A DNA stretch of 38,350 nucleotides from assembly GCA_030526295.1 (NCBI GenBank), contig JAUNDA010000014.1, forward strand, positions 1 to 38,350. The letters are read 5' to 3'. The stretch comes from Eubacteriales bacterium. GTDB taxonomy: Bacteria; Bacillota; Clostridia; Lachnospirales; Lachnospiraceae. A program made the position numbers and the translations under genes. This document shows positions 1 through 30,535 of this stretch, in pieces; position 1 is the first letter of the stretch; each line of letters begins with the position of its first letter. Under the pieces are notes generated by a model, which ran no database searches, was not told where the DNA came from, and saw nothing but the letters and a program-made list of their open reading frames with translations.

Positions 1-29
1 ACTCCCCGTCATTTGAAATAACGAGGAGT
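1..29 (-). terminator. Probable terminator stem of the 85-930 gene
   Basis: ACTCCCCGT (1-9) and ACGAGGAGT (21-29) form a stem with one mismatch and a 11-nt loop. It lies 55 bp past the stop of the secreted protein gene on the minus strand. The expected T-tract would fall outside the window, so it cannot be confirmed. Confidence 0.5.
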
Positions 30-84
30 TACAACCTTTAAATGGTTTAACATATTCAGCTTTTCGCTTTTAGCATAATCAGAC

Positions 85-3046: not shown

Positions 3047-3112
3047 ATTTTATCACATTTGGAAGGTCTCTTTCAATGCAATTGACAATTCTGTCATAGA
3101 CTTTTTTGTCAA
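3047..3112 (-). promoter_or_regulatory. Promoter and twin-palindrome box of the 947-3004 gene
   Basis: On the minus strand the box is at 3112-3081, followed after 4 bp by TTGAAA (-35, 3076-3071), an 18-bp spacer and TAAAAT (-10, 3052-3047). The box holds a perfect TGACA-ATTC-TGTCA palindrome (3083-3096) and, 15 bp centre to centre, a weaker one whose outer half TGTCA (3107-3111) is intact. It matches the box at 4679-4710 at 28 of 32 positions, with the same 4-bp gap to the -35. The position just upstream of a weak -35 suits an activator. The -10/-35 calls are by eye. Confidence 0.65.
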
Positions 3113-3150
3113 TTCTCGGGAATCGGAATCGAAACAAGTCCAATTGAAAA

Positions 3151-3178
3151 GCGTGTGAGGCAATTAAATCTCACACGC
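3151..3178 (-). terminator. Terminator of the 3211-4599 gene
   Basis: GCGTGTGAG (3151-3159) and CTCACACGC (3170-3178) form a perfect 9-bp stem with a 10-nt AT-rich loop. On the minus strand it is followed by CTTTTC. It sits 33 bp after the stop of the upstream secreted-protein gene and before the next promoter box. Confidence 0.75.
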
Positions 3179-3210
3179 CTTTACCGCACTATATTTAATT
3201 AAAGCTTTGA

Positions 3211-4599
3211 TCAGATTCTTGCACCTGTTGCATCTACCCTGTAGCCGTCAGGCGTTGTGGCATTAACTGCCATTCTTCCATCATTCCTGAAGTAGTAAAA
3301 TTTTCCGTTAATGTCAACCCATCCGGTAACCATTGCTCCGCCGTTTGAATCCCTGGTAGTTGCAAAATAATACCTGTTTGCTCCGATTGTCACAAGTCCC
3401 GTCTTCATTGCACCGAGTGTACCGTCACTTGATTCATTGAAGTAGAAGGTCTTGCCGTTTATGGTTCTAAAGCCCGTAGCCATGCTTCCGTCCGCATCAA
3501 ACCAGAACCAGTCTGCTGAATTCTGTCCCATCTTTGCATACGGATTGACAATCATGCCCCATGTATTCTTAAAAGGCTTATATGTTCCGTTTGCAAACTG
3601 CCATTTTCCGTCTGCTCCAAGTGTCCATGTTCCCGATGTCGGCATGTCCCATGTACCTGTACCCGTTGAGGTGCTTGATGTGGATGAACTATCATCCGCC
3701 GAATCAGAAGGTGTCGGTGGTGTTGGTGGGTTAACCGGGCCGCTCTGTGCTTCCTTAAGGTATACAGTAATGCAAATCCAGTCCCAGTCTTCGTCATACG
3801 GTGAAGCATCATCCTCTGACAATGTGTAAACATAGGTGCCGTCAGTTTTCTTTGCTAATTCCGATGCCTGTACCTCTTCGCCTGTATCAAGCTCGAGATA
3901 ATCAAGTTCGAATCCGTCAGGAGCCTTGATATTTAGCTTGCTTCCTTCGGTCTTGCCTTCATATATATTACATCTGTAGTGTCCCGGAGTTTTTCCCGTG
4001 CTGTCAGGAAGCTCGTTGTATGCCTCCTCATAGATAATACTTCTATCCTCAAGCCATGTATATCCTCGTTCTTCTTCAAACACCACATCTAGGAACATGC
4101 ACTCCCCCTCGTCCGAAAGTTCACATGGGCCCATTGACTCATATTCGTTCCATCTTGCTTCAATCTCAAAGGAATCATAATTAAGCATATCAATCGTAAA
4201 CTGCATATCGGTCAACTGAAGATAATCCGGATCTGACGGATTATAGTAGTTTCTCATTCGCTTTCTTACCGCCCCGCCTTTATAAAGAATTACCTCAACC
4301 TGATATATTCTTCCCACGTCCTTATCCGGCTGCTGAAGCGCAAATCTTACATACCTTTCCGTGATGGCGATTTCATCCACCGGCTCGGCAATTGCAGCTT
4401 CTTCCGGGTCATCTATGACATAGGTGCTGCTTGTTGCACACACATATCTTACAGCACCCTGAACGGTTCCGTCATCATCGGTCCATGACTCGTAATATGC
4501 CACAAATGTACCATCTGTCGGACCATCGGCAAATGCCGTAATGTTAATGCTGCAAAGAAGCATTGATAGTATCAGTAAAAACGCAAGCCTTCTTTTCAT
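3211..4599 (-). CDS. Secreted protein with paralogous N-terminal domain and cell-wall-binding repeats
   Basis: A 462-residue exported protein. The signal peptide (MKRRLAFLLILSMLLCSI, cleaved near AFA-D) and the N-terminal region to about residue 300 are related to the 947-3004 protein, including GSKLNIKAPDGFELDYLEL. A Pro/Ser/Thr linker (about 305-335) leads to wall-binding repeats (about 335-462) almost the same as in the 85-930 protein. It therefore combines the two module types that its neighbours carry separately. GGAGGA lies 6 bp before the ATG. It has its own promoter with the twin-palindrome box and its own terminator. It is divergent from the tandem-HTH gene at 4860. The function of the N-terminal module is unknown. 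Confidence 0.85.
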   Translation of the reverse strand: MKRRLAFLLILSMLLCSINITAFADGPTDGTFVAYYESWTDDDGTVQGAVRYVCATSSTYVIDDPEEAAIAEPVDEIAITERYVRFALQQPDKDVGRIYQVEVILYKGGAVRKRMRNYYNPSDPDYLQLTDMQFTIDMLNYDSFEIEARWNEYESMGPCELSDEGECMFLDVVFEEERGYTWLEDRSIIYEEAYNELPDSTGKTPGHYRCNIYEGKTEGSKLNIKAPDGFELDYLELDTGEEVQASELAKKTDGTYVYTLSEDDASPYDEDWDWICITVYLKEAQSGPVNPPTPPTPSDSADDSSSTSSTSTGTGTWDMPTSGTWTLGADGKWQFANGTYKPFKNTWGMIVNPYAKMGQNSADWFWFDADGSMATGFRTINGKTFYFNESSDGTLGAMKTGLVTIGANRYYFATTRDSNGGAMVTGWVDINGKFYYFRNDGRMAVNATTPDGYRVDATGARI

Positions 4600-4645
4600 A
4601 ACATTCCTCCAAAAAATATTCCTTCCCTTTTATAAATATGAGTGA

Positions 4646-4710
4646 AATTTAGCATTAAAAGGGGTGTTTTTCAATAAAATTGACAAATCTGTCATTGACA
4701 GTTTTGTCAA
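4646..4710 (-). promoter_or_regulatory. Promoter and twin-palindrome box of the 3211-4599 gene
   Basis: Two perfect palindromes, TGACA-AATC-TGTCA (4681-4694) and TGACA-GTTT-TGTCA (4696-4709), lie 15 bp centre to centre. On the minus strand, 4 bp after the box, comes TTGAAA (-35, 4674-4669), a 17-bp spacer and TAAATT (-10, 4651-4646). Spacing equals that at 3047-3112. Two dimer sites on a 15-bp pitch suggest a regulator binding as paired dimers. The divergent tandem-HTH protein is the nearest candidate, but that link is inference. Confidence 0.7.
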
Positions 4711-4722
4711 TTTTTGTATCAT
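4695..4722 (+). promoter_or_regulatory. Divergent promoter of the tandem-HTH gene
   Basis: TTGACA (4695-4700), a 16-bp spacer and TATCAT (4717-4722) read toward the gene at 4860. The -35 is half of the second palindrome of the box, so a protein bound there would block this promoter. That fits autorepression. The predicted start is near 4729, giving a leader of about 130 nt. Confidence 0.5.
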
Positions 4723-4859: not shown

Positions 4860-6257
4860 ATGAACGAATTCAAAGACCTGTTAAACAAATTTATGAAGGA
4901 AGCCGGAATATCCGGCAAGGAGCTTGCAACAAAGGCCGGTCTCTCAGAGGCTCTTATAAGCAGATATAAAAGCGGACAGCGAATCCCGTCAGCAGACAGT
5001 GAGAACCTCCGCCTTATTGCCGATGCCATCGAAACGACAGCCGAGGAGAAAAGCATCACTCTTTCAAGGAGTGATATTTATGAAGCCTTCATTACGGTTA
5101 TTCCGTCAGATGAGAACGAAAGCCTTGATGTGGTAAAGAATTTTAACGCACTGATTACGGTCCTTGACCTGAAAATCTCGGACCTTGCAAGAAGCCTAAA
5201 CTTCGACCCCTCCTACATTTATAAGATTCAGTCCGGTTCAAGGCGTCCTGCAGATGCAAGAAAGTTTGTATCACAGGTCAGTAGCTATGTTGTAAGAAAT
5301 GCAGGTGATACCGGCAGACAGGTAATCGCTAAGCTTTCAGAAACAGACCCCGATGTCACTGACAGGGAGCTTATTAACTCACTTGAGAAATGGATGCTTG
5401 GAAATTACGAGGAGCCCGAAAACAATGTCTCCGATTTCCTTTCAAAGCTCGATGAATTCGATCTTAACGAGTACATTGAAAGCATACACTTTAATGAAAT
5501 GAAGGTTCCTTCAGTACCTATGGTGCTTCCTCACACAAAGACCTATTACGGCCTTGAGGAAATGAAAAAGGGCGAAATCGATTTCATGAAGAGTGCTGTC
5601 CTCTCAAAGTCAATGGAGGATGTATTCATGTGTGCTGATACACCGATGGAGGACATGGCTGAGGATAAGGAATTTGGAAAGAAATGGATGATGGGACTTG
5701 CCTTCATGCTGAGAAAGGGTCTCAGGCTCAACCTTATTCACAACATCAACCGCCCGTTTAATGAGCTCATGCTGGGACTCGAGAGCTGGATTCCGATGTA
5801 TATGACAGGCCAGGTATCGCCCTACTGTCTTAAGGGACTAGACAATACCTATTATCACCATCTTCTCTATGTATCGGGAACGGAGGCCCTTAGCGGAGAG
5901 TGCCTTGCAAAGCACCACGAGAACGGAAAGTATTACCTCACAAACAACAAGGAGGAATATAAATATTACAAAAGGCGTGCCGACGACCTTCTTTCGATGG
6001 CCCGCCCGATAATGCGTATATACAGGGAGGATGAGGAAAAAATCGTAAATGCATTCCTCGAATCTGAAAGTGAGAAGGACGATGCCGAAATCAGAAGGTT
6101 TGACTCCCGCGGCTTTAAGAACATCTCAATGGAGGGAAAGTCTGGAAAGTGGATTCTCATTACAAAGACAAATGACCCGAAAATCTGGTTCCTGATCCAC
6201 CATACTGACCTCGTTACCGCAATTGAGAACTACATTCCGCCGTATGTGGAGTCGTGA
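4860..6257 (+). CDS. XRE-type regulator with two HTH segments and an orphan C-terminal domain
   Basis: A 465-residue cytoplasmic protein. Residues about 3-60 are an XRE/Cro-type helix-turn-helix (SGKELATKAGLSEALISRYKSGQRIPS). A second, more divergent one lies at about 85-120 (LKISDLARSLNFDPSYIYKIQSG). The remaining ~300 residues match no domain I can name; a notable stretch is RLNLIHNINRPFNELMLGLE followed by a YMTGQ--PY segment, and I see no membrane helix or catalytic motif. The domain may sense a ligand. Only a weak AGGA precedes the ATG. The gene is divergent from the secreted-protein genes and shares their palindrome box, so it is the likely regulator of that set and of itself. It is probably transcribed alone and ends at the shared terminator at 6349. 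Confidence 0.8.
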   Translation: MNEFKDLLNKFMKEAGISGKELATKAGLSEALISRYKSGQRIPSADSENLRLIADAIETTAEEKSITLSRSDIYEAFITVIPSDENESLDVVKNFNALITVLDLKISDLARSLNFDPSYIYKIQSGSRRPADARKFVSQVSSYVVRNAGDTGRQVIAKLSETDPDVTDRELINSLEKWMLGNYEEPENNVSDFLSKLDEFDLNEYIESIHFNEMKVPSVPMVLPHTKTYYGLEEMKKGEIDFMKSAVLSKSMEDVFMCADTPMEDMAEDKEFGKKWMMGLAFMLRKGLRLNLIHNINRPFNELMLGLESWIPMYMTGQVSPYCLKGLDNTYYHHLLYVSGTEALSGECLAKHHENGKYYLTNNKEEYKYYKRRADDLLSMARPIMRIYREDEEKIVNAFLESESEKDDAEIRRFDSRGFKNISMEGKSGKWILITKTNDPKIWFLIHHTDLVTAIENYIPPYVES

Positions 6258-6471: not shown

Positions 6472-7431
6472 TCAAATTGTCAGCTTTTTTGTCAAATCAG
6501 CGGCAATTGGATCTTTTTTAACGTAGTACACATAACCTACAGGATGTCGATTTGGGTCTATTCCATAGGTTTTATCATCCTGTGGAATAGGGCTTGGGAC
6601 GGTTCGCATAAGCATCGTATCGCCGCCAAGCGCCCAGGCTACCGTTATTACATCCCATAATGGCTTACTCCAATCTTCATAATTGAATTTCAGCTTTGCA
6701 TATTCATATGTACTATCAATTAAATAGTTGCATAATTCGTTCTTATCTCTGAAACGATACTCCAGTTCAGCTTTTCCGAAACGAAATTCGGATACAACTC
6801 CCATACATGGAACCTGAACCACTGCAGCACCACTTCCATAGATAACACGAGCTGCAGACAAATCCTGTTTCATATTAAACTCGTCACAACCACCATAATG
6901 CTGTGCGTGTCCACCAAGCCAAACAATTACAACCCTCTTCGCCATTTCCGGCTCTAAAAGAAGTGCTGATGCAACATTTGTTCCTGCAGCAATAGCAAGG
7001 ATATACAAAGGATGTTCCTGCGAATACTCTCTGGAAATCTCAATCATGGCTCTAGCAGCGGGAGAATCCACCGGAGTTACATCATCCGGTAAATATGCGT
7101 TTGAGCCTCGATATACCCTATCTTTCAATTCCGGTGTCCCAAGCAAATCCAACACTTTTAAGATTTCATGGTAACTCTTTTCCATCCCATCTCCCGGACT
7201 TTCAGAACGAAAAATGCCTGTTGAAGGATCTCTGTAAAATGGTGCTGCCGTAATGCCACGAATAGTCAGCTGATTCTGAGAGCGAACCAGATAAGAAAGA
7301 GCAAACTGGTCATCAATCTCATTATATGTATCGCTGTCCAAAATGACATCAACACCATTTCTTGGGAGATTAATGCGACGGATTAATTCAGTGTTGTCAG
7401 GCTTTGGAAAAATTTCTTTGAGTGTTTTCAT
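6472..7431 (-). CDS. Nucleoside hydrolase (IUNH family), catalytic His replaced
   Basis: A 319-residue enzyme of the inosine/uridine-preferring nucleoside hydrolase family, which splits N-ribosyl bonds to base and ribose. The calcium/ribose site is visible as D32-x-D34-x5-D40-D41 in LDSDTYNEIDDQFA. A C-terminal calcium Asp is visible in PLWDVITVAWAL (about residue 257), but the His that normally precedes it in classical members is Trp here. Family members with that change can still hydrolyse substrates, so specificity is open. There is no signal peptide, so it acts in the cytoplasm. GGAGGATATGAT precedes the ATG. It is the last gene of the LacI-ribokinase-ABC transporter operon, which suggests that the transported compound is a nucleoside or ribosyl conjugate; ribose released here would feed the ribokinase. 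Confidence 0.85.
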   Translation of the reverse strand: MKTLKEIFPKPDNTELIRRINLPRNGVDVILDSDTYNEIDDQFALSYLVRSQNQLTIRGITAAPFYRDPSTGIFRSESPGDGMEKSYHEILKVLDLLGTPELKDRVYRGSNAYLPDDVTPVDSPAARAMIEISREYSQEHPLYILAIAAGTNVASALLLEPEMAKRVVIVWLGGHAQHYGGCDEFNMKQDLSAARVIYGSGAAVVQVPCMGVVSEFRFGKAELEYRFRDKNELCNYLIDSTYEYAKLKFNYEDWSKPLWDVITVAWALGGDTMLMRTVPSPIPQDDKTYGIDPNRHPVGYVYYVKKDPIAADLTKKLTI

Positions 7432-7499
7432 ATCATATCCTCCTTGTCCAGCAAACGTTCAAGGACCTATTATCGAGAATTGCCAATTTTACATCAAAA

Positions 7500-8462
7500 T
7501 CAAAGATTGCAGCATGCTACAAAATGACCTGGCTTTACCTCCTGAAGCTTGGGTATTCCTGCTGAGCACTGTTCGCATTTACAGCTGCATCTCTTACGGA
7601 ATCTGCACTCATCTGGCAGGTTTATTGGTGACACAACTTCGCCCTGAATCAGCACTTCTTCTTTTCTTTCACGAATCTCAGGGACAGGAATTGCCGAAAG
7701 TAACGCCTTGGTATAGGGATGAAGAGGATTGCTGAACAATTCGTCTACAGGTGCCTTCTCCACAACACTTCCCAGATACATAACTGCAATTTCATCAGCA
7801 AAATGATTTACAACGGATAGATTATGTGTAATGAAAATGTAGGTAAGTCCTCTTTCCTTTTGCAAATCCTTAAGCAGATTCAGAATCTGAGCCTGTATAG
7901 AAACATCCAATGCAGAAACAGGTTCATCACAGACAATCAGCTTGGGATTCAATGCCAATGCCCTGGCAATACCAATTCTCTGACGTCGTCCACCATCCAA
8001 CTCATGTGGGTAGGAATTGTACAAACGTCGTGCGAGACCTACAGTATCCATCAGATTCAGAATGTATTCTTCCTTCTTTTGTGCCAGTTCTCGTCCACTG
8101 CCTTCCAATACTTTATGGTAATTCAAAGGTTCGGCAATTAACTCACTCACCGTCATTCGAGGGTCCAAAGAAGAAAAGGGATCCTGAAAAATAATCTGCA
8201 TATCACGGCGCAGCTTTGTCATCTCTCGGTCACTAACCTTGGTAATGTCTTTTCCCTCGAAAATTATCTGGCCCGATGTTGGTTCAATTAATCGTAGAAT
8301 TGTTCGTCCAGTTGAGGATTTTCCGCATCCAGACTCTCCTACAATGCCTAGGGTTTTACCCCTTTCGATGGAAAAATTCACATTATCCACCGCATGTACA
8401 TTTCCTTTAGGGGACTTGAAATACTTCTTTAGATTTTTTACTTCCAAAATGATTTCTGCCAT
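7500..8462 (-). CDS. Opp/Dpp-family ABC transporter ATPase (DppF-like)
   Basis: A 320-residue ATPase. Walker A is GESGCGKSS (42-50), the signature is LDGGRRQR (about 155-162, a variant of LSGGQ common in this subfamily), Walker B is LIVCDEPVSALD, and the H-loop is FITHNLSVV. The tail has the Cys-rich oligopeptide/dipeptide ATPase extension (CRFRKRCSCKCEQC) and ends in ACCNL. It pairs with the ATPase at 8465-9520 to power the two permeases. Only 2 bp separate the genes. A 68-bp gap without a clear promoter separates it from the nucleoside hydrolase. Confidence 0.92.
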   Translation of the reverse strand: MAEIILEVKNLKKYFKSPKGNVHAVDNVNFSIERGKTLGIVGESGCGKSSTGRTILRLIEPTSGQIIFEGKDITKVSDREMTKLRRDMQIIFQDPFSSLDPRMTVSELIAEPLNYHKVLEGSGRELAQKKEEYILNLMDTVGLARRLYNSYPHELDGGRRQRIGIARALALNPKLIVCDEPVSALDVSIQAQILNLLKDLQKERGLTYIFITHNLSVVNHFADEIAVMYLGSVVEKAPVDELFSNPLHPYTKALLSAIPVPEIRERKEEVLIQGEVVSPINLPDECRFRKRCSCKCEQCSAGIPKLQEVKPGHFVACCNL

Positions 8463-8464
8463 TG

Positions 8465-9520
8465 TTAATTCCCCCTTCTGATTTTAAATTCAGGATTCTC
8501 GTATGCAGTACACTGTGCATAATGTGTTTCCGAAAAACTGTGCACCGGAACATTTCCTTTTCGGCAGGCATCAGTTGCATAAGCACAACGATCTGCAAAA
8601 GCACAGCCCTCAGGAAGATTGGACGGATCCGGCATCAGTCCTGGAATCGGCTGGAGCTTTTGCTGTCGACTGTTGATATTCGGCAGTGAGTTAAACAGAC
8701 CCTCCGTATATGGATGTTTTGTGTGATTGAACACTTCTTCAAGTTTACCATACTCTACAATTCTTCCGGCGTACATTACTGCCACTTCATCACAAAGTTC
8801 TGCAACTACACCTAAATCATGGGTAATCATAATGAGGGCGGTATCATTCTTCTCCTTCAGGTCCTTCATCATTCTAAGAATCTGTGCCTGTATTGTTACA
8901 TCCAACGCAGAAGTAGGTTCATCAGCGATTAAAACTGTTGGATTACATGCTAGTGCAATGGCAATGCCAACACGCTGACGCATACCTCCTGAGAACTGGT
9001 GAGGATACTCACCTACTCGATTAGGGTCGATTCCAACCATTTCGAGCATTTTTCCAGCCTCTACCATTGCCTCTTTTTCCGTTAGATGGCGATGAAGAAT
9101 TATACTCTCTGCAATCTGCTCTCCAACGGACAGTACAGGATTTAACGAGGTCATCGGATCCTGGAAAATCATAGCGATTTCGCTTCCACGGACTGTCTGC
9201 AGTTCCGCCGGTGTCAGATTACGCATATCCAGACCGTTAACCTTTACTGTTCCGGATTTCACCACTCCCGGGGGATATGGAACCATATTCATCAGTGCAA
9301 GCATTGCCGTAGTCTTTCCGGCTCCTGTTTCACCAACCAAACCTAACGTATGCTTCTTTTCAAGCTTCAGGCTGATTCCGTTTACCGCTTCTACTGTTTC
9401 CGTGGAAGTAACATATTGAACCACCAGGTTCTCAACCTCTACAGCTGCGGCGTTTTCCTGCCTCTTTTTCTTTAAGGACTCTTCCACATTAGTCCTTGTG
9501 AATTTATTAATAAGCCCCAT
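8465..9520 (-). CDS. Opp/Dpp-family ABC transporter ATPase (DppD-like)
   Basis: A 351-residue ATPase. Walker A is GETGAGKTT, the signature FSGGMRQR, Walker B VLIADEPTSALD, the H-loop ITHDLGVV. A C-terminal Cys-containing extension (CAFADRCAYATDAC) is typical of oligopeptide/nickel ATPases. The frame stays open to a GTG at 9529, but I prefer the ATG at 9518-9520: GAGG lies 8 bp upstream of it and only 0-1 bp from the GTG. An N-terminal extension of about 20 residues before the ABC domain is rich in basic residues. It forms the NBD heterodimer with the 7500-8462 protein. Confidence 0.92.
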   Translation of the reverse strand: MGLINKFTRTNVEESLKKKRQENAAAVEVENLVVQYVTSTETVEAVNGISLKLEKKHTLGLVGETGAGKTTAMLALMNMVPYPPGVVKSGTVKVNGLDMRNLTPAELQTVRGSEIAMIFQDPMTSLNPVLSVGEQIAESIILHRHLTEKEAMVEAGKMLEMVGIDPNRVGEYPHQFSGGMRQRVGIAIALACNPTVLIADEPTSALDVTIQAQILRMMKDLKEKNDTALIMITHDLGVVAELCDEVAVMYAGRIVEYGKLEEVFNHTKHPYTEGLFNSLPNINSRQQKLQPIPGLMPDPSNLPEGCAFADRCAYATDACRKGNVPVHSFSETHYAQCTAYENPEFKIRRGN

Positions 9521-9530
9521 AGTCAACACC

Positions 9531-10418
9531 TCATCTCTTCAGCTTAGGATCCAGCGCATCTCTTAATCCGTCACCCACCAGGTTTATAGTCATAACAGTG
9601 ACCATAATGGCAAGTCCCGGGAACAGGCACATATGCTGTGCACGTGTCAGGAAGGACTTGGACGCACTCAGCAGTGCACCCCATTCAGGAGTCGGCAGCG
9701 GAACGCCCAGACCGATATAACTCAATCCGGCTGCGGATATAATCGCTGTTCCCACTCGTAATGTAGCCTGAACCAAAATCGGAGAGAAACAGTTTGGAAG
9801 AACATGTTTCAACAGAATAGTTGTAGTTGGTGCGCCTATCGCACGAGCGGATTCAATATAATCATTATTTCTTGTGACCATAACCGAGGCACGCGTAATC
9901 CTTGTAAATACCGGAATTGCACTTATTGAAAGAGCAATAATCAGGTTAATCATGCTGGTGCCCATAATTGAAACCAAAATAATAGTCATCAGCAGGCTGG
10001 GAATGATTGTAAAGGTATCTACAAAACGCATGAGTATGGTGTCGAATTTTCCTCCAATATATCCGGATGCTGCGCCAATAGGAACACCAATCAGTAATCC
10101 GATAAGCACTGAAGAAAAACCAATAATCAAAGAATAACGGGTACCATAGCCAATTCTTGCCAGCATATCACGGCCAAAATTATCTGTTCCGAAAGGATGC
10201 TCTAAACATGGTTCAATAAGACGGTCTTTGGAACTGGTAGCAATAATGTCTGCCTCATAATCCCATATAACATCCGCAAAGATTGCAATTAAAATCAAAA
10301 TAATGAGAATAATCAAACCAACCATTGCGCCTTTGTTTCTCTTGAACTGCTTCCACACCTCAACGACGCGGTTCTGTTTGACACTGATTTGTTCGTTTGT
10401 CTTTTCTACTTTTGCCAT
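9531..10418 (-). CDS. Opp/Dpp-family ABC permease (DppC-like)
   Basis: A 295-residue inner-membrane permease. The N-terminal OppC/DppC domain (WKQFKRNKGAMVGLIILIIL) carries TM1, a short external loop contains HPFGTDNFGRDMLAR, and the BPD transport domain has the EAA-type loop ESARAIGAPTTTILLKHVLPN that contacts the ATPases. About six membrane helices are visible. GGTGGGG precedes the ATG. It forms the channel with the 10431-11363 permease. Confidence 0.92.
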   Translation of the reverse strand: MAKVEKTNEQISVKQNRVVEVWKQFKRNKGAMVGLIILIILILIAIFADVIWDYEADIIATSSKDRLIEPCLEHPFGTDNFGRDMLARIGYGTRYSLIIGFSSVLIGLLIGVPIGAASGYIGGKFDTILMRFVDTFTIIPSLLMTIILVSIMGTSMINLIIALSISAIPVFTRITRASVMVTRNNDYIESARAIGAPTTTILLKHVLPNCFSPILVQATLRVGTAIISAAGLSYIGLGVPLPTPEWGALLSASKSFLTRAQHMCLFPGLAIMVTVMTINLVGDGLRDALDPKLKR

Positions 10419-10430
10419 TTCCCCACCTCA

Positions 10431-11363
10431 TTAGCTCTTGGAATATTGTGCCTTGATTCTGGGATCCAAGAATGCATAAACAATGTCCACAATCAAAAGG
10501 ACCACAGAAACAAATACAGCCAGCATGATGATAAAACCAGTAACCACTTCAAAGTCGCTCTTGAGAATGGAATCTACAAGGAAGCTGCCTACTCCAGGAA
10601 GTGCAAATACTCTTTCAGTCAATACAGCACCACCAATCAGTGTGGAAACCTGAATACCAATCATTGTAACAATGGGAATCTGTGCGTTTTTAAGCGCATG
10701 TTTCATAATGATTTTTTGATCACTGACACCCTTTGACCTGGCTGTTCTCAGGTAATCCTGTTTCAGCACGTCCAGCATTGCAGATCGGGTTGTTCGAGTC
10801 AGTGCTGCCATGTTACCGGTTCCACATGTTATCGCAGGAAGGATAAAGCTTTTCCAACCATTTGCTCCTGTGGAGGGCAACCATCCAAGCTTTACAGAAA
10901 ACAGAATAATCAACAACAAACCGAGCCAGAAGTTTGGCATTGCCAATCCCACAAAGGAGACGGTAGATGCAGCAGTGTCAACAAGCGTGTTCTCTTTTAC
11001 CGCTGCTATAATTCCCAATGGAATTGAAAGAATTACAGTCACAAGTACTGATGAAATTGCCAACTTCAGTGTGGTAGGGAATTTTTTGAAAAACAGGTCC
11101 CAAACAGGCACGTTATTGGCATAGCTGGTTCCAAGGTCTTTTTTCAAAACGCCGCCCATATACCGAATATAGCGTACAAGGAGCGGATCGTTGAGTCCAT
11201 GCGCCTCACGGTACTCTTCAAGCTGTTCCTCAGTTGCACCATCACCTAATGCAGTAACCGCGGCATCCGTGGGAACAAAGTCCATAATAAAGAACACAAT
11301 AAGCGATACTGCCACAACCACTGGTATGATCATAACAATTCGCTTCAAAATATATTTGAGCAT
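10431..11363 (-). CDS. Opp/Dpp-family ABC permease (DppB-like)
   Basis: A 310-residue inner-membrane permease. It starts with the typical MLKYILKRIVMIIPVVVAVSL helix and has the N-terminal motif GLNDPLLVRYIRYMGGVLKKDLG. The EAA loop is RTARSKGVSDQKIIMKHALKNA. The signature end is LDPRIK. AAAGGAG precedes the ATG. The stop lies 12 bp before the DppC-like start, so translation is coupled. An intercistronic hairpin separates it from the binding-protein gene. Confidence 0.92.
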   Translation of the reverse strand: MLKYILKRIVMIIPVVVAVSLIVFFIMDFVPTDAAVTALGDGATEEQLEEYREAHGLNDPLLVRYIRYMGGVLKKDLGTSYANNVPVWDLFFKKFPTTLKLAISSVLVTVILSIPLGIIAAVKENTLVDTAASTVSFVGLAMPNFWLGLLLIILFSVKLGWLPSTGANGWKSFILPAITCGTGNMAALTRTTRSAMLDVLKQDYLRTARSKGVSDQKIIMKHALKNAQIPIVTMIGIQVSTLIGGAVLTERVFALPGVGSFLVDSILKSDFEVVTGFIIMLAVFVSVVLLIVDIVYAFLDPRIKAQYSKS

Positions 11364-11402
11364 ACTTTTCTCCTTTACAGGTTAAATGGAGTCGATAGAA
11401 TT

Positions 11403-11434
11403 GGTGGGGAAGTCGACATTTCCACTTCCCCACC
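11403..11434 (-). other. Intercistronic hairpin between binding protein and permease genes
   Basis: GGTGGGGAAGT (11403-11413) pairs exactly with ACTTCCCCACC (11424-11434). It is strongly GC-rich for this operon and has no T-tract. Such stems after a binding-protein gene usually protect the upstream mRNA from 3' decay or partly stop transcription, which keeps the binding protein in excess over the permease. Confidence 0.65.
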
Positions 11435-11447
11435 ATAAAAGTTGATA

Positions 11448-13043
11448 TTATTCTGTCACATAGCAGTATGAGAAGTCTACATCTACTGCCTGAGCATTTA
11501 AGTTAACACCACCAAAGTTCTTAGATCCAACACAGAACAGGTTAGCAGTTGCAAGAGCCACGCCCGGAACCTCATCAGCAACATACTGCTGCAGTCCTGC
11601 ATACTTTGATAACATTTCATCGAAGTTTCCACTTGCAAGAACGTCTGCCAGCTTAGCATCGAACTCCGGATTAGCGTAGTTCATGAATGAACGTGTTGCG
11701 CCAGTCTTCAGATACTCGATCATAACTGTGATGATACCACCATACTGGCTAGTACAGTTGATTGCTAAGTCGTAACCGTTGTCCTCACGGATTGCCTTTG
11801 TAAATCCTGTCTGAGCCCACTCCTGAATTTCAAGATTGATGCCTGCGTCACGAAGATTACTCTGAATCATCTCTGCTACAGGGATATATTTAGCAAATGT
11901 ATATAACTTAAGGGTGATACCACCTAAGCCATTCTCCTCAAGAAGGGCCTTAGCTGCTTCAGGATTATACTCGTAAGCATCTACTTTAGTATATCCAACA
12001 GCAACCGGGCTTATGAAATTATCGCACATAGTGCCACAAAGTCCGTCCTCATAGCATACAGACAGAATATCATCACGGTTCACAGACATTGCAACTGCCT
12101 GACGAACAATCTTGTTTGCGCCATATTCGCTGTTTGCATTAAAACCAGCGTATACAACCTGAATGTTGCTTGCACTGAATACATTGTAGTTTTCCTCATC
12201 ATGGATGAAGTTAACAATATCAGAAGGATTACCATCATACATAGCATCGATGTCGCCTGACTGCAGAGCTAATGCACGTGAGCTGGCATCTGTGATTACC
12301 TCGAAGGTAATAGACTCTGTTACCGGCTTCTCTCCCCAGTAATCATCAAAACGACGGATTGTCCATGATACACCTGTCTCAACAGAATCGAAGTAGTAAG
12401 GACCTGTACCGATCTTCTGACCTTCAATGATTCCCATGTTCTCACAAGCAGTCTTGCTCATGATGTCCTGAGCAGCATAGTTGAGCCAGTCAGCAGATGG
12501 ATCCTTAAGCTTAAAAGTAACCTGATAAGGAGAATCAACCACAACCTCATCAACATAGGCAATACCTGAGATAGCCTGTGATACGCCCTCGTTTGATGTA
12601 GTAGAATTGTAATCCCAAGTGAACTTTACATCCTCTGCTGTGAAATCACTGCCATCGTGGAACTTAACGCCTTCACGTAAGGTGAATGTCCATTCTGTGG
12701 CAGTATCATTTGATTTCCATTCCGTTGCAAGTTCTGGAACTGCAGTTCCATCAGTCTGAATTGCAACAAGACCATTAAATGTTGAGTTACAGGTCTGAGT
12801 GGTAACTGTTGCAGTTCCTGCATAGCGGCATGCAACAGTCAGATCAGCAAGTGTACCAATTTTGATATCCTTCTTGTACTTGATATCAGATGATTCCGTA
12901 GCGCTAGCCGCTGTGGTTTCTGCCTTTTCAGCGGATGCGGCTGCTTGAGTAGTAGCTGCCGGAGTTTCGGCGGGTTTACTTCCGCATGCTGCTAAGCCTA
13001 ACAGCATTGCGACAGTCAAAAGGATTGAGATTGTCTTTTTCAT
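11448..13043 (-). CDS. ABC transporter substrate-binding lipoprotein (SBP family 5)
   Basis: A 531-residue extracellular lipoprotein of the oligopeptide/dipeptide/nickel binding family. I start it at the ATG at 13041-13043 (GAGGG 7 bp upstream), which gives a lipoprotein signal peptide with lipobox LAAC at about residues 18-21; the open frame extends 28 codons upstream without sense. After an Ala/Thr/Glu linker the family motif VPELATEWKSNDTATEWTFTLREGVKFHDG is clear, and LALQSGDIDAM and a C-terminal lobe follow. Family 5 proteins bind peptides but also sugars, heme, opines and other solutes. The company of ribokinase and nucleoside hydrolase argues for a ribosyl compound. The ligand cannot be read from sequence. 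Confidence 0.88.
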   Translation of the reverse strand: MKKTISILLTVAMLLGLAACGSKPAETPAATTQAAASAEKAETTAASATESSDIKYKKDIKIGTLADLTVACRYAGTATVTTQTCNSTFNGLVAIQTDGTAVPELATEWKSNDTATEWTFTLREGVKFHDGSDFTAEDVKFTWDYNSTTSNEGVSQAISGIAYVDEVVVDSPYQVTFKLKDPSADWLNYAAQDIMSKTACENMGIIEGQKIGTGPYYFDSVETGVSWTIRRFDDYWGEKPVTESITFEVITDASSRALALQSGDIDAMYDGNPSDIVNFIHDEENYNVFSASNIQVVYAGFNANSEYGANKIVRQAVAMSVNRDDILSVCYEDGLCGTMCDNFISPVAVGYTKVDAYEYNPEAAKALLEENGLGGITLKLYTFAKYIPVAEMIQSNLRDAGINLEIQEWAQTGFTKAIREDNGYDLAINCTSQYGGIITVMIEYLKTGATRSFMNYANPEFDAKLADVLASGNFDEMLSKYAGLQQYVADEVPGVALATANLFCVGSKNFGGVNLNAQAVDVDFSYCYVTE

Positions 13044-13089
13044 AATTTTTCCCTCTTTCTTATTTAATTCTTTATAGGACCTATATTTA

Positions 13090-13118
13090 ATATTATTCTT
13101 TATATTAATGAATAATAT
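13090..13118 (-). other. AT-rich inverted repeat between rbsK and the binding-protein gene
   Basis: ATATTATTC (13090-13098) and GAATAATAT (13110-13118) are exact reverse complements around an 11-nt loop in an 80-bp gap. It is weak as a terminator. It may be an internal regulatory hairpin or chance in AT-rich DNA. Confidence 0.3.
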
Positions 13119-13123
13119 AGTGT

Positions 13124-14050
13124 TCAAAGCCTAGTTGAAATGAGTGTTTCCGCTTCCTTTCTTGTTGGTATCGATGTCTGTGCCCCTGCTCTTGTAACTG
13201 AAATTGCTGCTGCAGCATTGGCAAGTCTTATTGCCTCATCAAGGCTTTTTCCCTCAGCCAGTCCTACTGCGATTCCGGCATTAAAGGTATCACCAGCCGC
13301 CGTTGTGTCTACAGGCTTAACACCTGTATATGTCGGACATAACCTACACTCCTTTTCATTGCAAAGGAATGCTCCCCTTGAACCAATTGTTACAATTACG
13401 TTTTTTACACCCTTTTCAAGTATTGCCCTTGAAGCCTTTTCTATTTCATCGATTGTATTAACAGGCATACCCGTTATTGTTGATAGTTCTGTTTCATTTG
13501 GTGTAATAAAATCAAGACCGTCAAATATGTCATCAGGAATCTTTGTTGAAGCGGGAGCCGGGTTTAATATCACTGTCTTTCCGGCCTTCTTTGCCATTCG
13601 GATTAATCCAAACACACCTGAAAATGCTGTCTCAAGTTGCGTCATAACAATGCCTGCTTCCTCAATTACATTCCTGTTTTCCTCAACATAATTCATATCA
13701 CATTCGCCGTTTGCACCCGGTATTATGACTATGCTGTTGTTTCCATTGGCATTAACCATAATTACCGCCGTACCTGTCGGACAGTTATCTAGTTTTGCCA
13801 TTTTTTCTGTATTTACACCTGCGGAATTCAGGCTTTTTGTTAATATCTCTCCTGCATCATCATTTCCAATCTTGCTTAGAAATACACAATCACCGCCAAG
13901 TCTTCCACATGCAACCGCCTGGTTGGCACCCTTTCCTCCGGGAACTGTTTTGTATTCCTTACATTTGATTGTCTCACCCTTTTGTGGCATTTCTTCAACA
14001 TTAAGAACCATGTCAATATTAGAACTTCCAAATACCACAATTTTTTCCAT
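13124..14050 (-). CDS. rbsK: Ribokinase (PfkB family)
   Basis: A 308-residue cytoplasmic kinase that turns ribose and ATP into ribose 5-phosphate. Family signatures are visible: N-terminal GSSNIDMVLNVEEMPQKGET, sugar-binding GGKGANQAVACGRLGG (about 38-53), and the catalytic/anion-hole motif DTTAAGDTFNAG (about 248-259) with the base Asp. Length matches RbsK. GAGG lies 9 bp before the ATG. It is the second gene of the operon, 9 bp after the LacI gene. No ribose transporter (rbsABC) or rbsD is nearby, so its ribose probably comes from the nucleoside hydrolase. Deoxyribokinase activity cannot be excluded. Confidence 0.88.
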   Translation of the reverse strand: MEKIVVFGSSNIDMVLNVEEMPQKGETIKCKEYKTVPGGKGANQAVACGRLGGDCVFLSKIGNDDAGEILTKSLNSAGVNTEKMAKLDNCPTGTAVIMVNANGNNSIVIIPGANGECDMNYVEENRNVIEEAGIVMTQLETAFSGVFGLIRMAKKAGKTVILNPAPASTKIPDDIFDGLDFITPNETELSTITGMPVNTIDEIEKASRAILEKGVKNVIVTIGSRGAFLCNEKECRLCPTYTGVKPVDTTAAGDTFNAGIAVGLAEGKSLDEAIRLANAAAAISVTRAGAQTSIPTRKEAETLISTRL

Positions 14051-17118: not shown

Positions 17119-17922
17119 TTATTTTTCCACCATGTGAATGACCTTACGCGGACATTTTGCAGCACACGCGCCACAAGCCGTGCACTTCTCGTAGTCGATA
17201 ACTGCTACGTTTCCGTCCATGTGGATTGCATCAAACTCACACTGCTTTGTGCAGAGGGTACATGCGATGCAGCCTGCCTTGCAGACATTCATTACAGCCT
17301 TTCCTCTTGCCTGTGAAGCACATGCAACCTTTACCTTTGCGTCGTAAGGAACCATTGTAATGATCTTCTGAGGACATGTCTTTACGCATGCCATACATGC
17401 TGTACACTTGTCGGCATCAACCCTTGCGATACCGTTAACGAGGTGCATTGCATCAAACTTACATGCCTTTACACATGCTCCGTGACCCATACAGCCAAAT
17501 CCGCAGCCCTTGTCATCAAGACCCGGAACTACTGCAAGTGCGTTACAGTCCTCGATACCTGTGTAGGAGAACTTAGCCACAACCTTCTGGCAGTCTCCTG
17601 AGCATCTTACATATGCAACCTTTCTGACACCTGCCTCAGCCTTTACACCCATAACCTCAGCGATTGCGTCAGCTACAGGCTGCTGTCCAACAGGACATGC
17701 ATTAACCGGTGCCCTTCCCTCGTTGATGGCCTTTGCAAGACCATCACATCCAGGATATCCGCAGCCACCGCAGTTGTTGCCCGGAAGGCACGCACGTACG
17801 GCTGCTTCTCTTTCGTCTACTTCAACCTTGAACTTCTCACCGAAAATTCCAAGTCCGAGGCCTACTACAATTCCTGTTGCTGCTACAACAGCGGCAGCGA
17901 TAAGTATTAATGTAATATTCAT
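17119..17922 (-). CDS. rnfB: Rnf complex subunit RnfB (iron-sulfur protein)
   Basis: A 267-residue polyferredoxin, probably the entry point for ferredoxin electrons. Residues 1-25 form the single membrane helix. A four-Fe-S domain follows (CLPGNNCGGCGYPGC, about 47-61). A Cys-rich ferredoxin region has CGFGCMGHGACVKAC, CTACMACVKTCP, CIACTLCTKQC and CTACGACAAKCP, so several [4Fe-4S] clusters. I choose the ATG at 17920-17922 (GGAGG 7 bp upstream) rather than the GTG one codon earlier. It is the last gene of the operon. Confidence 0.95.
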   Translation of the reverse strand: MNITLILIAAAVVAATGIVVGLGLGIFGEKFKVEVDEREAAVRACLPGNNCGGCGYPGCDGLAKAINEGRAPVNACPVGQQPVADAIAEVMGVKAEAGVRKVAYVRCSGDCQKVVAKFSYTGIEDCNALAVVPGLDDKGCGFGCMGHGACVKACKFDAMHLVNGIARVDADKCTACMACVKTCPQKIITMVPYDAKVKVACASQARGKAVMNVCKAGCIACTLCTKQCEFDAIHMDGNVAVIDYEKCTACGACAAKCPRKVIHMVEK

Positions 17923-17934
17923 CACGCTACCTCC

Positions 17935-18012
17935 TTACATAATTCCGGAGAATCCGAAGAATGCGATTGACATGAGGGCCGCTGTTACAAGAACAATCGG
18001 AACACCCTGCCA
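17935..18012 (-). pseudogene. rnfA: Detached last helix of RnfA, in frame after a stop
   Basis: Directly after the TAA at 18015-18013, the same reading frame continues for 25 codons and ends with TAA at 17937-17935. The encoded WQGVPIVLVTAALMS- then IAFFGFSGIM is the conserved C-terminal helix of RnfA. With it the protein would be 191 residues, the usual length. No start codon or ribosome site would allow it to be made alone. Confidence 0.85.
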
Positions 18013-18510
18013 TTAGTGCTGCACGACATTGCCCTCGGTATGCTCCCTGATACCTGCAAGCAGGATGATTGCTATGCAGTAACCGATGGCTGTTGCAAAA
18101 CCGTTTACAACAGACTCAACGAGTGTGTAACTCTTCTGTGCATTTGTAAGTGCAACACCAAGCACTGCACAGTTTGTTGTGATAAGCGGAAGGTATACGC
18201 CAAGTGAGTTGTAAAGCGATACCATGCACTTATGCATGAACATCTCAACGATCTGTACAAGCGCTGCGATAACGATGATGAAAACAATCGTCTTAAGGTA
18301 TGTGATTCCAAGAGGAACAAGAACGAAGTTGTAAAGCAGTGATGCCACAAGTGAGGCAAGTGTCATTACGAATACAACCGCTCCGCCCATACCTGCAGAT
18401 GTCTTAACATCTGTTGAAACTCCGATGAATGAGCAGATGCCGAGGAACTGGCTCAGAACTACGTTTGAAACGAGGCATGAGCTTACAGCGATAATAATTA
18501 ATTTAGCCAT
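18013..18510 (-). CDS. rnfA: Rnf complex subunit RnfA, interrupted by an in-frame stop
   Basis: A 165-residue membrane protein; complete RnfA has about 190 residues and six helices. The N-terminal part is normal (SCLVSNVVLSQFLGICSFIGVS, then the MGGAVVFVMTLAS helix) and ends after LLAGIREHTEGNVVQH with TAA. The missing last helix is present in frame downstream (17935-18012). In other RnfA proteins the segment before that helix reads about DVP-x4-G; here it reads VVQH-stop-WQG. Adding one C after 18021 and removing one G of the TGG at 18012-18010 would give NVVPALMQG, so two compensating indels (biological or assembly) explain it better than one base change. GGAGG precedes the ATG. RnfA and RnfE bind a shared cluster in the membrane, so loss of the last helix would probably damage the pump. 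Confidence 0.85.
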   Translation of the reverse strand: MAKLIIIAVSSCLVSNVVLSQFLGICSFIGVSTDVKTSAGMGGAVVFVMTLASLVASLLYNFVLVPLGITYLKTIVFIIVIAALVQIVEMFMHKCMVSLYNSLGVYLPLITTNCAVLGVALTNAQKSYTLVESVVNGFATAIGYCIAIILLAGIREHTEGNVVQH

Positions 18511-18513
18511 GGT

Positions 18514-19221
18514 TTATGCCTCCTCCTTCTTCTCAGTCTTGTATGAGCCTGCACCCATACGGCACATTGTACAGTTACCGTCACACATTACGTGGTCAGG
18601 ATCAATTGCATCTCCGTTTGTTGCACATGGAAGCTTTAACTTGTTCTGCAGTGCCGTAAGCATTGCATAAACAAGGAATGCACCAGGTGCGAGTATGAAG
18701 ATTGAAATCGGTGTGTAGCCCTGCGGCATGATCCTAAATCCGAAGATTGTACCTGCACCGAGGATTTCCCTGAAGCCACCGATAAGAACAAGTGCAATTG
18801 CGAATCCAAGTCCCATTCCGAGTCCGTCAAACATTGAAAGAATCGGGTTATGCTTAAGCGCATATGACTCTGCTCTTCCAAGGATTATACAGTTAACTAC
18901 GATAAGCGGAATGAAGATTCCGAGTGACTCGTAAAGGTCCGGTACGAATGCCTCCATAAGCATGTCACATACTGTAACAAGTGAAGCAACGATTACGATT
19001 TCGGCTGGGAGACGTACCTTGTCCGGGATGATGTTCCTGAGTGCCGAAATGATGATGTTTGAGAATACAAGTACGGCAGTTGCGGCAAGACCCATTCCGA
19101 GACCGTTAGTCGCGCTTGTTGTTACCGCAAGTGTAGGACATGTACCAAGTAACAGAACGAAGAGAGGATTTTCTTTCCATACTCCGTTATAAATTCTCTC
19201 AAGATACTTATTGTTCTTCAT
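18514..19221 (-). CDS. rnfE: Rnf complex subunit RnfE
   Basis: A 235-residue membrane protein with six helices, homologous to RnfA. I start it at the ATG at 19219-19221, preceded by AAGGAGG 5 bp upstream; this gives the usual MKNN--LERIYNGVWKENPLFVLLLGTCPTLAVT beginning. Conserved parts are NGLGMGLAATAVLVFSN and the helix pair around IFIPLIVVNCIILGRAESYA. The cytoplasmic tail is unusual in holding CATNGD and CDGNCTMC, a Cys cluster (CDGNCTMC near the C-terminus) that might hold metal. Confidence 0.95.
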   Translation of the reverse strand: MKNNKYLERIYNGVWKENPLFVLLLGTCPTLAVTTSATNGLGMGLAATAVLVFSNIIISALRNIIPDKVRLPAEIVIVASLVTVCDMLMEAFVPDLYESLGIFIPLIVVNCIILGRAESYALKHNPILSMFDGLGMGLGFAIALVLIGGFREILGAGTIFGFRIMPQGYTPISIFILAPGAFLVYAMLTALQNKLKLPCATNGDAIDPDHVMCDGNCTMCRMGAGSYKTEKKEEA

Positions 19222-19235
19222 ATGGTCCTCCTTTC

Positions 19236-19853
19236 TTATACTAAGCATTCCATTACGAAATAAACTGCTGCATTAACTGCATTTGTTACTGCCCTTGATG
19301 TCTTTGTTGCACCTGAGATTGCCTCAACCTCCATCGGGCCTGCACCATCTGTCTTGATAACGGTAAGTGTTGCAGCCGACTTTGTTGTGAACTGGTCCTT
19401 AAACTCAGGCTCCTTTGCCTTCATTCCAAGACCTGCTGTCTCGTTAAGTGTAAGGAAGCCAACACCTGTAAGCTTACCTGCAGCCTTGTCAATACCAACT
19501 GAGATTGTAACCTCTCCGCCGTAGCCTTCCTTTGATGATGCTGTTACAAGATATCCGATAACCTCGCCTTTGGCAACATATGCCTTCATGCACTGGTCAA
19601 CGGTAACATTCTCACCCTGTGCGATTCTTATCATTGAATCACAGACATCTACCTTGTCCTGCATCTCCTCCGGAGCTCCGAAGTGGTCAGCTGTCGGGAA
19701 AACCTCCTTATAGGTCTTCTCTGCCTTCTCTGCCCTTACTCCGACGATAATGGGTGTTGTTACCTCATGTGTTGCACCGAGTGCGAGGCCTGCGATAAGA
19801 GTAATGGCAAAAAGGATAAGTGCATCCCTGATGATTCTTTTAACGTCCATCAT
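19236..19853 (-). CDS. rnfG: Rnf complex subunit RnfG (covalent FMN)
   Basis: A 205-residue protein with one N-terminal membrane helix (DALILFAITLIAGLALGA) and an extracytoplasmic FMN-binding domain. The flavinylation motif is SGATKTS (180-186), with T185 the predicted FMN-linked residue. GYGGEVTISVGID and NETAGLGMKA are typical. The ATG at 19853 overlaps the rnfD stop by one base; the next codon is also ATG and could be used. Confidence 0.95.
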   Translation of the reverse strand: MMDVKRIIRDALILFAITLIAGLALGATHEVTTPIIVGVRAEKAEKTYKEVFPTADHFGAPEEMQDKVDVCDSMIRIAQGENVTVDQCMKAYVAKGEVIGYLVTASSKEGYGGEVTISVGIDKAAGKLTGVGFLTLNETAGLGMKAKEPEFKDQFTTKSAATLTVIKTDGAGPMEVEAISGATKTSRAVTNAVNAAVYFVMECLV

Positions 19854-20794
19854 TATTTACCTCTCTTTCCGAATGCCTTAGGCATGGTGTACTTCTCGAT
19901 AAGCGGAACAAGAAGGTTTGAAAGGATGATTGCATATGAAACTCCCTCAGGTGAACCGCCGTAGAGTCTGAATACTCCGGTGAAGATACCAAGGATTGCA
20001 GCAAATACATACTGTCCCTTCTTTGTAATCGGGCTTGTTGCATAGTCTGTTGCCATGAAGAAAGCACCGAAGATGAGTCCTCCTGAGAGAAGCTCATAGA
20101 GAAGATATGATAAATCTCCGCCCTTAAAGAAAAGTACGAATACTGAGAATACTCCGATGTATGTAAGAGGTATTCTCGGTGAAATAACCTTTGTGATTAC
20201 AAGATATGCACCACCAACCAAAAGTGCAAGCTTGCTAACCTCACCGATTGTTCCAGGGATGTTTCCGAGGAAAAGATCGAGTGTGCTGTATGTTGAAAGG
20301 TTTCCTGAAGCTGCCGCTGCAAGCGGTGTTGCTCCTGAAACTGCGTCAAATCCAATCTTTGCACATGTGAAGTTGTTCATCATGCCTGCAAATGAAATAA
20401 GAAGGAAGCATCTTGCAGCAAGTGCCGGGTTCATGAAGTTCTGTCCGATTCCACCGTAAAGCTGCTTTACAACGATGATTGCGAAAACACCGCCAAGAGC
20501 CGGAATCCAGAGCGGAATCTGCGGCGGCATGTTGAGTGCGAGGATAAGACCCGTAACAACTGCCGAAAGGTCGCCTGCCGTCTGAGGCTTCTTCATGAGC
20601 TTATTCCAGAGATACTCTGAAAGTACACACGCACCTACTGTTACTGCAATGATTGCAAGTGCGTAGAAGCCAAATCTGAATACTGCGATTGCTGAAGCCG
20701 GGATAAGTGCGAGAACCACATCGAGCATGATGCTCCTTGTGTCGGCCTTTGCCCTGAAATGAGGTGATGATGATACATTATGAAGTTTTGCCAT
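19853..20794 (-). CDS. rnfD: Rnf complex subunit RnfD (covalent FMN, membrane)
   Basis: A 313-residue protein of the NQR2/RnfD family with about eight to ten helices. The FMN attachment motif is SGATPL (153-158, T156). The conserved GGIGQNFMNPALAARCFL and FMATDYATSPIT segments are present. Electrons pass from RnfG/RnfD through the membrane as part of Na+ or H+ transport. GGAGG precedes the ATG; the gene is joined closely to rnfC. Confidence 0.96.
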   Translation of the reverse strand: MAKLHNVSSSPHFRAKADTRSIMLDVVLALIPASAIAVFRFGFYALAIIAVTVGACVLSEYLWNKLMKKPQTAGDLSAVVTGLILALNMPPQIPLWIPALGGVFAIIVVKQLYGGIGQNFMNPALAARCFLLISFAGMMNNFTCAKIGFDAVSGATPLAAAASGNLSTYSTLDLFLGNIPGTIGEVSKLALLVGGAYLVITKVISPRIPLTYIGVFSVFVLFFKGGDLSYLLYELLSGGLIFGAFFMATDYATSPITKKGQYVFAAILGIFTGVFRLYGGSPEGVSYAIILSNLLVPLIEKYTMPKAFGKRGK

Positions 20795-20795
20795 A

Positions 20796-30225: not shown

Positions 30226-30305
30226 TGCGGATAACAGGACTTGAACCTGCACGGTCTCCCACCAGAACCTAAATCTGGCGCGTCTGCCAATTCCGCCATA
30301 TCCGC
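30226..30305 (-). tRNA. tRNA-Leu (anticodon TAG)
   Basis: Acceptor arms GCGGATA (5', at 30305) and TATCCGC with discriminator A pair fully. The anticodon stem CCAGA/TCTGG has loop TTTAGGT, anticodon TAG. A long class II variable arm and the T loop GGTTCAAGTCC are present. CCA is not encoded. Confidence 0.93.
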
Positions 30306-30316
30306 ATATATAAGAC

Positions 30317-30388
30317 CAGGGCCGGCGGGACTCGAACCCACGAGTGAGAGGATCAAAACCTCTTGCCTTACCGCTTGGCGACGGCCCT
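30317..30388 (-). tRNA. tRNA-Gln (anticodon TTG)
   Basis: Acceptor AGGGCCG/CGGCCCT pairs with discriminator G. The anticodon stem AGAGG/CCTCT has loop TTTTGAT, anticodon TTG. The T arm has GGTTCGAGTCC. Confidence 0.92.
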
Positions 30389-30397
30389 ACATATAAT

Positions 30398-30429
30398 AAG
30401 ACCGCCGCTAGCTAGTAGCGGCGGGTCTT
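30398..30429 (-). other. Strong GC-rich hairpin between tRNA-His and tRNA-Gln
   Basis: AAGACCGCCGCTA (30398-30410) pairs with TAGCGGC-G-GGTCTT (30416-30429), with one bulged G. No good T-tract follows on the minus strand. It may act as a processing signal or partial terminator within the tRNA transcript. Confidence 0.6.
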
Positions 30430-30434
30430 TGAAG

Positions 30435-30509
30435 GGTGGGTAGAGGGATTCGAACCCTCGACCTTCAGAACCACAATCTGACGCGCTAACCAACTGTGCT
30501 ACACCCACC
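30435..30509 (-). tRNA. tRNA-His (anticodon GTG)
   Basis: The extra 5' G (30509) pairs with C73, the hallmark of tRNA-His. The anticodon stem TCAGA/TCTGA has loop TTGTGGT, anticodon GTG. The T arm is GAGGG-TTCGAAT-CCCTC. Confidence 0.93.
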
Positions 30510-30535
30510 ATATTTATTTCCCGATTACCTCGGTA

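Follow-up and report, generated by a model that had tools for sequence, protein, structure and literature searches.

Two copies of one box in a single contig

The window analysed here is a stretch of 38,350 nucleotides that makes up an entire contig of a 2.25-Mb, 129-contig genome of the family Lachnospiraceae. It raises the question of why two secreted-protein genes carry nearly the same symmetric sequence just upstream of their promoters, and whether this sequence is read by the protein with two helix-turn-helix (HTH) domains that is encoded divergently from one of them. We consider it likely, with a probability of roughly 0.7, that the box is the operator of this tandem-HTH protein (4860-6257), which would activate the secreted-protein promoters and, in the window, repress its own gene. 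Further along, the window encodes a nucleoside hydrolase and an oligopeptide ABC transporter set (6472-13127, minus strand), Rnf-type electron-transport domains (17119-22184, with a 4Fe-4S protein at 17119-17925 and the RnfC barrel at 20796-22184) and four consecutive tRNA genes (30226-30609, minus strand) adjoined by an AAA_14/DUF4143 protein (30997-32313).

Recounting reproduced the match reported in the first-pass annotation: positions 3081-3112 and 4679-4710 are identical at 28 of 32 positions, and in 60 shuffles of the two promoter stretches a 32-base match never rose above 21. The same annotation described each box as a pair of TGACA-N4-TGTCA sites 15 bp apart. The pair is indeed present in box 2 (TGACAAATCTGTCA from 4681 and TGACAGTTTTGTCA from 4696, 15 bp apart) and recurs in box 1 with one half degraded; as a whole, however, box 2 is better described as a single nested dyad of 33 bp than as twin palindromes. 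It occupies 4679..4711, is assigned to neither strand and is centred on 4695, with the outer arms TTGACAAA and TTTGTCAA enclosing an inner core, TGTCA-T-TGACA. Its 19-nt arms are 95% complementary, and 30 of its 33 positions are symmetric. Box 1 (3081..3113, likewise strandless) is the same dyad copied, with one half degraded and 22 of 33 positions symmetric.

When the whole 2.25-Mb genome was searched with a fixed half-site pattern, boxes 1 and 2 were the only sites at up to two mismatches. Three other sites matched the box pattern at three mismatches, and a 71-base query around box 1 found two matching places. A wider regulon was dropped as a candidate, the pattern search having returned no further clear box in this genome.

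Both boxes lie 4 bp from a TTGAAA -35, as had been claimed. The promoter-like site of the 3211-4599 gene (4646..4674, minus strand) combines this -35 (4669-4674) with a 17-bp spacer and the -10 TAAATT (4646-4651); that of the 947-3004 gene (3047..3076, minus strand) has its -35 TTGAAA at 3071-3076, a spacer of 18 bp and the -10 TAAAAT at 3047-3052. The -35 of the regulator gene had been assigned to the outer TTGACA of box 2. It is actually the inner one, at 4695-4700 within the box, followed by a 16-bp spacer and the -10 TATCAT at 4717-4722 (site 4695..4722, plus strand), with 11 of 12 consensus letters. The scan as a whole gave 10 promoter-like sites, no clear excess over shuffled sequence (mean 7.4, sd 2.5), and its -10 and -35 matrices, like the hydropathy scale, the signal-peptide rule and the background composition used below, are rules of thumb.

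A palindrome of this kind might also act as an RNA hairpin, either an attenuator or a terminator, and a terminator scan flags CTGTCATTGACAG with its T-run (4689-4701, plus strand) as terminator-like. Because the box precedes both secreted-protein promoters and contains the regulator gene's -35, however, none of the three predicted transcripts contains it, and the chance that it works as RNA is, in our estimate, negligible.

The second box and gene duplication

The gene behind box 2, divergent to the regulator gene, encodes P0003 (3211..4599, minus strand), a protein of 462 aa with a signal-peptide-like start and C-terminal repeats of the choline-binding/glucan-binding type. Behind box 1 lies the gene of its paralogue P0002 (947..3004, minus strand; 685 aa), which also has a signal-peptide-like start. 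The two proteins are 44% identical over residues 1-96 and share a second block. P0002 has no family above the Pfam cutoff and is present in one of 80 genomes, its own. A third protein, P0004 (85..930, minus strand; 281 aa), has a signal-peptide-like start and choline-binding-type repeats that are 75% identical to those of P0003; since its start lies 17 bp past the end of the P0002 ORF, it probably belongs to the same operon as P0002. A hairpin, GCGTGTGAG / CTCACACGC followed by TTTTC, is seen 3′ of P0003 (3151..3178, minus strand) and is a possible terminator separating the P0003 and P0002 units. It is absent from the output of the terminator scan, in which the loop limit is 8 bases.

The DNA around the boxes had been described as without likeness. 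This is correct for the leader between box and gene, which at offset 1598, the offset of the boxes, is identical at 16 of 41 and 15 of 33 positions, but not for the beginning of the genes, where a 78-nt block covering start and signal-peptide codons shows 79% identity at an offset of 1595. The genes behind the boxes being paralogous, the box would have been copied together with the gene, and on this evidence the second box is a product of the duplication of the secreted-protein gene. One could go further and suppose that the boxes are alike merely through gene duplication and have no function. The paralogy of P0002 and P0003 agrees with this, as does the extent of the duplicated block, from the box through the signal peptide. 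Duplication accounts for the presence of two boxes, but it does not explain why 29 of 33 box positions were kept while the likeness of the leader was lost. Moreover, regulators in other genera are accompanied by boxes built in the same way and have unrelated neighbour genes (see below). We give very little credence to a functionless copy.

The tandem-HTH regulator and its family

The regulator P0001 (4860..6257, plus strand; 465 aa) consists of a first HTH at residues ~3-63 (HTH1), a second at ~84-147 (HTH2) and a C-terminal part without family assignment. Residues 10-61 match Pfam HTH_3 (E = 4.1e-10), and residues 99-135 match a CI-like phage profile (E = 5.5e-4). In an AlphaFold2 model built from four sequences (mean pLDDT 64.2, pTM 0.37) both HTHs appear as four-helix units, the first at high confidence, and the C-terminal part is a mixture of strands and helices at low confidence. 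This part, ~270 residues in P0001 and longer in most relatives, gave no convincing match in Pfam, NCBIfam or the sequences of solved structures. Among six aligned family members, HTH_3 was found in all six, and their Pfam matches included no TPR family. Full-length members mostly have 570-610 residues; P0001 is without a block of ~110 residues near the C-terminus, and the regulators of loci L074, L075 and L081 are also short.

A protein search of 99 genomes found matches at E = 0.001 in 20, many of them covering the HTH stretch only. Among other genomes of the window's genus, the top match shares 27% identity and has no HTH1. A profile of the six members detected the regulator at E = 1e-30 in 38 of the 397 genomes searched from the same family, and at E = 1e-60 in 19 of 392 genomes of the order, several of which are shared with the family set. 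Close relatives occur in records labelled uncultured Erysipelotrichaceae, Ruminococcus and Lachnospiraceae. The viral contigs searched contained no relative of the regulator, and matches of the regulator to phage profiles were limited to the HTH region and scattered weak ones. Among the papers listed in a literature search, which covered few subscription papers, none deals with the regulator family or the box; the matches listed for TGTCATTGACA were largely from HIV sequencing.

Similarly built boxes next to related regulators

We read the 330 bases before 27 regulators, namely those of 26 relatives and of the window. A dyad recurs there, for example AATTTCCGAACTGTCA-A-TGACAATTCGGAAATT at L058, and in the relatives it is built from an inner core, TGTCA-N-TGNCA, and outer arms that match each other. 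Twin palindromes as a general rule were ruled out: in most relatives the outer arm is unlike the inner half, and the design in which they agree is peculiar to the window. With a 16-bp half-site matrix in a leave-one-out test, 14 of the 26 relatives reached p < 0.01 against 572 control windows and 12 failed; in a later set, obtained after the core had been defined, 4 of 11 loci passed at the same threshold and 7 failed. Box 2, which was outside the training of the matrix, has a score that is reached by 0.5% of the 572 controls and by none of 300 shuffles. Box 1 is weak, its score being reached by 1.9% of the controls and 0.7% of the shuffles. The shuffles matter because the control windows are somewhat less AT-rich than the tested regions (0.56 vs 0.62).

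The pairing of the outer arms was assessed by permutation, using 24 boxes found by the core alone, of which two are probably chance hits and were kept. Arms within one box agree at 139 of 264 positions, as against a mean of 95.7 (sd 7.3) when arms are permuted between boxes, and none of 20,000 permutations was as high. At one locus, L089 (G711:C2), the regulator frame is broken in HTH2 and the box is still clear, possibly a recent loss.

When the 397 genomes were searched with the commonest box-type pattern at up to one mismatch, 14 genomes matched. These are 6 of the 38 genomes with the regulator (in 5 of them at the regulator) vs 8 of the 359 without it (Fisher p = 9e-4). Recall is low because some arm types, including that of the window, are not covered by the pattern. 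No relative of the regulator was found within a few kilobases around 10 off-regulator sites. In a set of 27 genomes with relatives, 5 sites at up to one mismatch lie at the regulator and 2 elsewhere; at two mismatches the reversed control pattern also matches in 9 of the 27. The first-pass annotation had proposed the identity of the regulator as a guess; comparison now supports it, as same-design boxes precede many relatives of the 4860-6257 protein.

The box might instead belong to a global regulator of unrelated type and have come to stand next to this gene family only secondarily. The core is short and the 4860-6257 protein is only the predicted binder, which leaves room for such a reading. 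Against it stands the fact that this genome contains only two copies at up to two mismatches. Boxes without the regulator family were also looked for, and off-regulator near-copies are no commoner than matches to the reversed pattern (8 of the 359 genomes lacking the regulator vs 8 of 397 for the control). We therefore regard a global regulator as highly improbable.

Which HTH reads which part of the box

In eight relatives HTH1 is missing, and the protein is made up of HTH2 and the C-terminal part. Upstream of three of them (L042, L043 and L049) stands a 13-base core, TTGTCA-N-TGACAA, at up to one mismatch and without arms, which was reached by none of 200 shuffles; no upstream core was found at the other five. 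These core-only boxes suggest that HTH2 may read the inner core.

The residue corresponding to position 121 of P0001, in HTH2, goes along with the centre of the box. Among 25 boxes, a 2-bp centre is found in 7 of 8 with an aromatic residue vs 0 of 17 with Ser (p = 1.7e-5), a value with few independent events behind it, since the 2-bp centre requires three changes, two of them forced, on a 23-member tree. The window is the one exception to this rule, having Y121 and a 1-bp centre. In Mantel tests, the outer arms covary with HTH1 when HTH2 is given (r = 0.34, p = 0.0035), and the inner core with its gap covaries with HTH2 when HTH1 is given (r = 0.37, p = 0.0005). After control for the distance of the C-terminal part, standing for the overall protein, the link between arms and HTH1 is lost (r = 0.14, p = 0.10), whereas that between core and HTH2 survives (p = 0.0035). 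HTH2 as the reader of the outer arms was set aside, the Mantel tests having gone the opposite way. Taken together, the bare cores and the rule for residue 121 hint at a division in which HTH2 would sit on the core and HTH1 on the arms.

Promoter geometry and divergent neighbours

Towards the divergent gene, 16 of 27 boxes have a -10 element with a score of at least 5 that starts at +25..28, counted from the edge of the box. The 27 boxes are a set that includes weaker boxes chosen by matrix or eye as well as the two of the window; in other windows four positions wide the mean count of target-side -10 elements was 0.55 and the maximum 2. The two promoters of the window are outside the 16 because their -10 scores are just under 5.0 and 3.6. 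Several target promoters, for example those of L058, L055 and L062, have a poor -35 beside the box.

The same regulator and box could also work by repression, with the secreted-protein genes and the regulator gene both shut off until a signal releases them. Cro/CI-type HTH proteins are often repressors, a protein bound at a box that abuts the -35 could hinder the polymerase, and one box faces two promoters. On the other hand, the -10 keeps a fixed distance of +25..28 and the box lies outside the -35, an arrangement that an activator requires but a repressor can do without, and the poor -35 elements beside the box point in the same direction. We consider repression of the secreted-protein genes unlikely. 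Activation of surface-protein genes, as first proposed, thus retains the support of box position in 16 of 27 boxes, although this spacing did not recur in the loci added last.

These were seven further loci for which predictions had been fixed beforehand. A strict core was present in 3 of the 7 and a matrix match at p < 0.01 in 2; the same three core-bearing loci are of the Ser type with a 1-bp centre, as predicted. The -10 spacing at a score of at least 5 was found in none of the seven, with two reaching 4.4, so the promoter rule is valid in the earlier sets but breaks down in this one. L146 and L147 are near-copies of L054 and L148 resembles L087, and they therefore add little.

On the regulator side, a -10 with a score of at least 5.5 lies at +5..8 in 6 of 26 boxes and at +25..30 in 12 of 26. 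In the first class the core supplies the -35 of the regulator gene, as in the window. Self-repression through a covered -35 would accordingly be one of two designs: it is plausible in the window, whose inner TTGACA doubles as the regulator -35, but is not general. In the second class the box has the same position relative to both promoters, as would be fitting for activation in both directions.

In 21 of 27 loci, counting that of the window, the nearest upstream ORF of at least 100 aa runs divergently. By a crude signal-peptide rule, 16 of 20 neighbours, a few of which belong to regulators without a box, look secreted, vs 47 of 146 other ORFs (p = 6e-5). Pfam assignments for 20 neighbours (18 from the loci tested for signal peptides and two others) are BspA-type LRR in three, Big_2 in two, thermolysin-type M4 in two, and DUF4214, TPR, an MscS-type channel and an HD/Cache protein; nine had none. 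This variety indicates that regulator and box accompany changing, mostly secreted partners. Not every partner is secreted, given that L150 and L152, two core-bearing loci of the last seven, combine a core box and the regulator with a divergent aminopeptidase-P-like gene (named by eye). In three distant relatives, L039, L046 and L049, the divergent gene starts with a zinc-ribbon-like CxxCG..CxxCGA.

Proposed mechanism and its meaning

In the reading we prefer, that of an operator of the tandem-HTH protein, a regulator dimer would bring four HTH domains to four nested half-sites around one centre, two of them inner (the core TGTCA-N-TGNCA) and two in the outer arms. From a position immediately before the -35 of a secreted-protein promoter, the dimer would help RNA polymerase and so activate transcription. 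In the window the regulator gene's -35 coincides with one inner half-site, and the same binding would therefore be expected to turn the regulator's own gene off. The second box would have arisen with the duplication of the secreted-protein gene. What the sequences show directly are the boxes with their geometry, the recurrence next to related regulators and the paralogy of the two genes. We infer binding, stoichiometry, activation, self-repression and the reading of core and arms by HTH2 and HTH1, respectively, activation following from the position of the box and self-repression from its overlap with the promoter in the window.

Since similar boxes recur next to many related regulators, diverse surface proteins may be governed by a small switch that also controls itself. 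As a more tentative extension, possible rather than probable, the locus might be a portable expression cassette for surface proteins, in which the design of regulator and operator is constant and the cargo (LRR, Ig-like, thermolysin-like or choline-binding-type) is exchanged; a constant core read by HTH2 and a lineage-specific address read by HTH1 would then keep related switches apart. If the operator reading is true, it offers a handle on when these bacteria display diverse secreted proteins, with a regulator family that occurs in 38 of 397 sampled genomes of the window's family. The nested operator, with its constant core and matched, lineage-specific arms, would make a long-standing question testable, namely how two HTHs in one chain share the reading of an operator, and targets would be predictable from the box alone.

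Comparison with known regulatory systems

A divergent arrangement and an operator that overlaps the regulator's own promoter are common among XRE regulators, and the N-terminal HTH of P0001 (residues 10-61; Cro/CI-type, Pfam HTH_3, E = 4.1e-10) places it near them. It differs in having a second HTH ~80 residues further on and a C-terminal part of ~270 residues without convincing match. From CI-like phage repressors the family is set apart by the C-terminal part as well: the Pfam matches of the six members include no self-cleaving S24 peptidase.

Among RRNPP regulators, AimR of arbitrium phages also combines an HTH protein with a long two-fold symmetric operator, the binding of P0001 being predicted. 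AimR is reported to protect 37 nt, with two 6-mer inverted boxes 25 bp apart; it combines a single HTH with a TPR domain, and the middle of its operator goes unread in sequence (PMC6458997). Here, by contrast, there are two HTHs, the middle of the operator is conserved and no TPR family was matched.

In 16 of 27 boxes (0 of 7 in the later loci) the operator precedes the target promoter at a fixed distance, as with a class II-like activator. LysR- and AraC-like regulators follow a logic in which a divergent local activator serves one neighbouring promoter. The system described here would share with them one box between two back-to-back promoters, its position by the target -35 and self-control. 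It differs from them in belonging to another protein family and in having as neighbours unrelated secreted proteins rather than the genes of one pathway.
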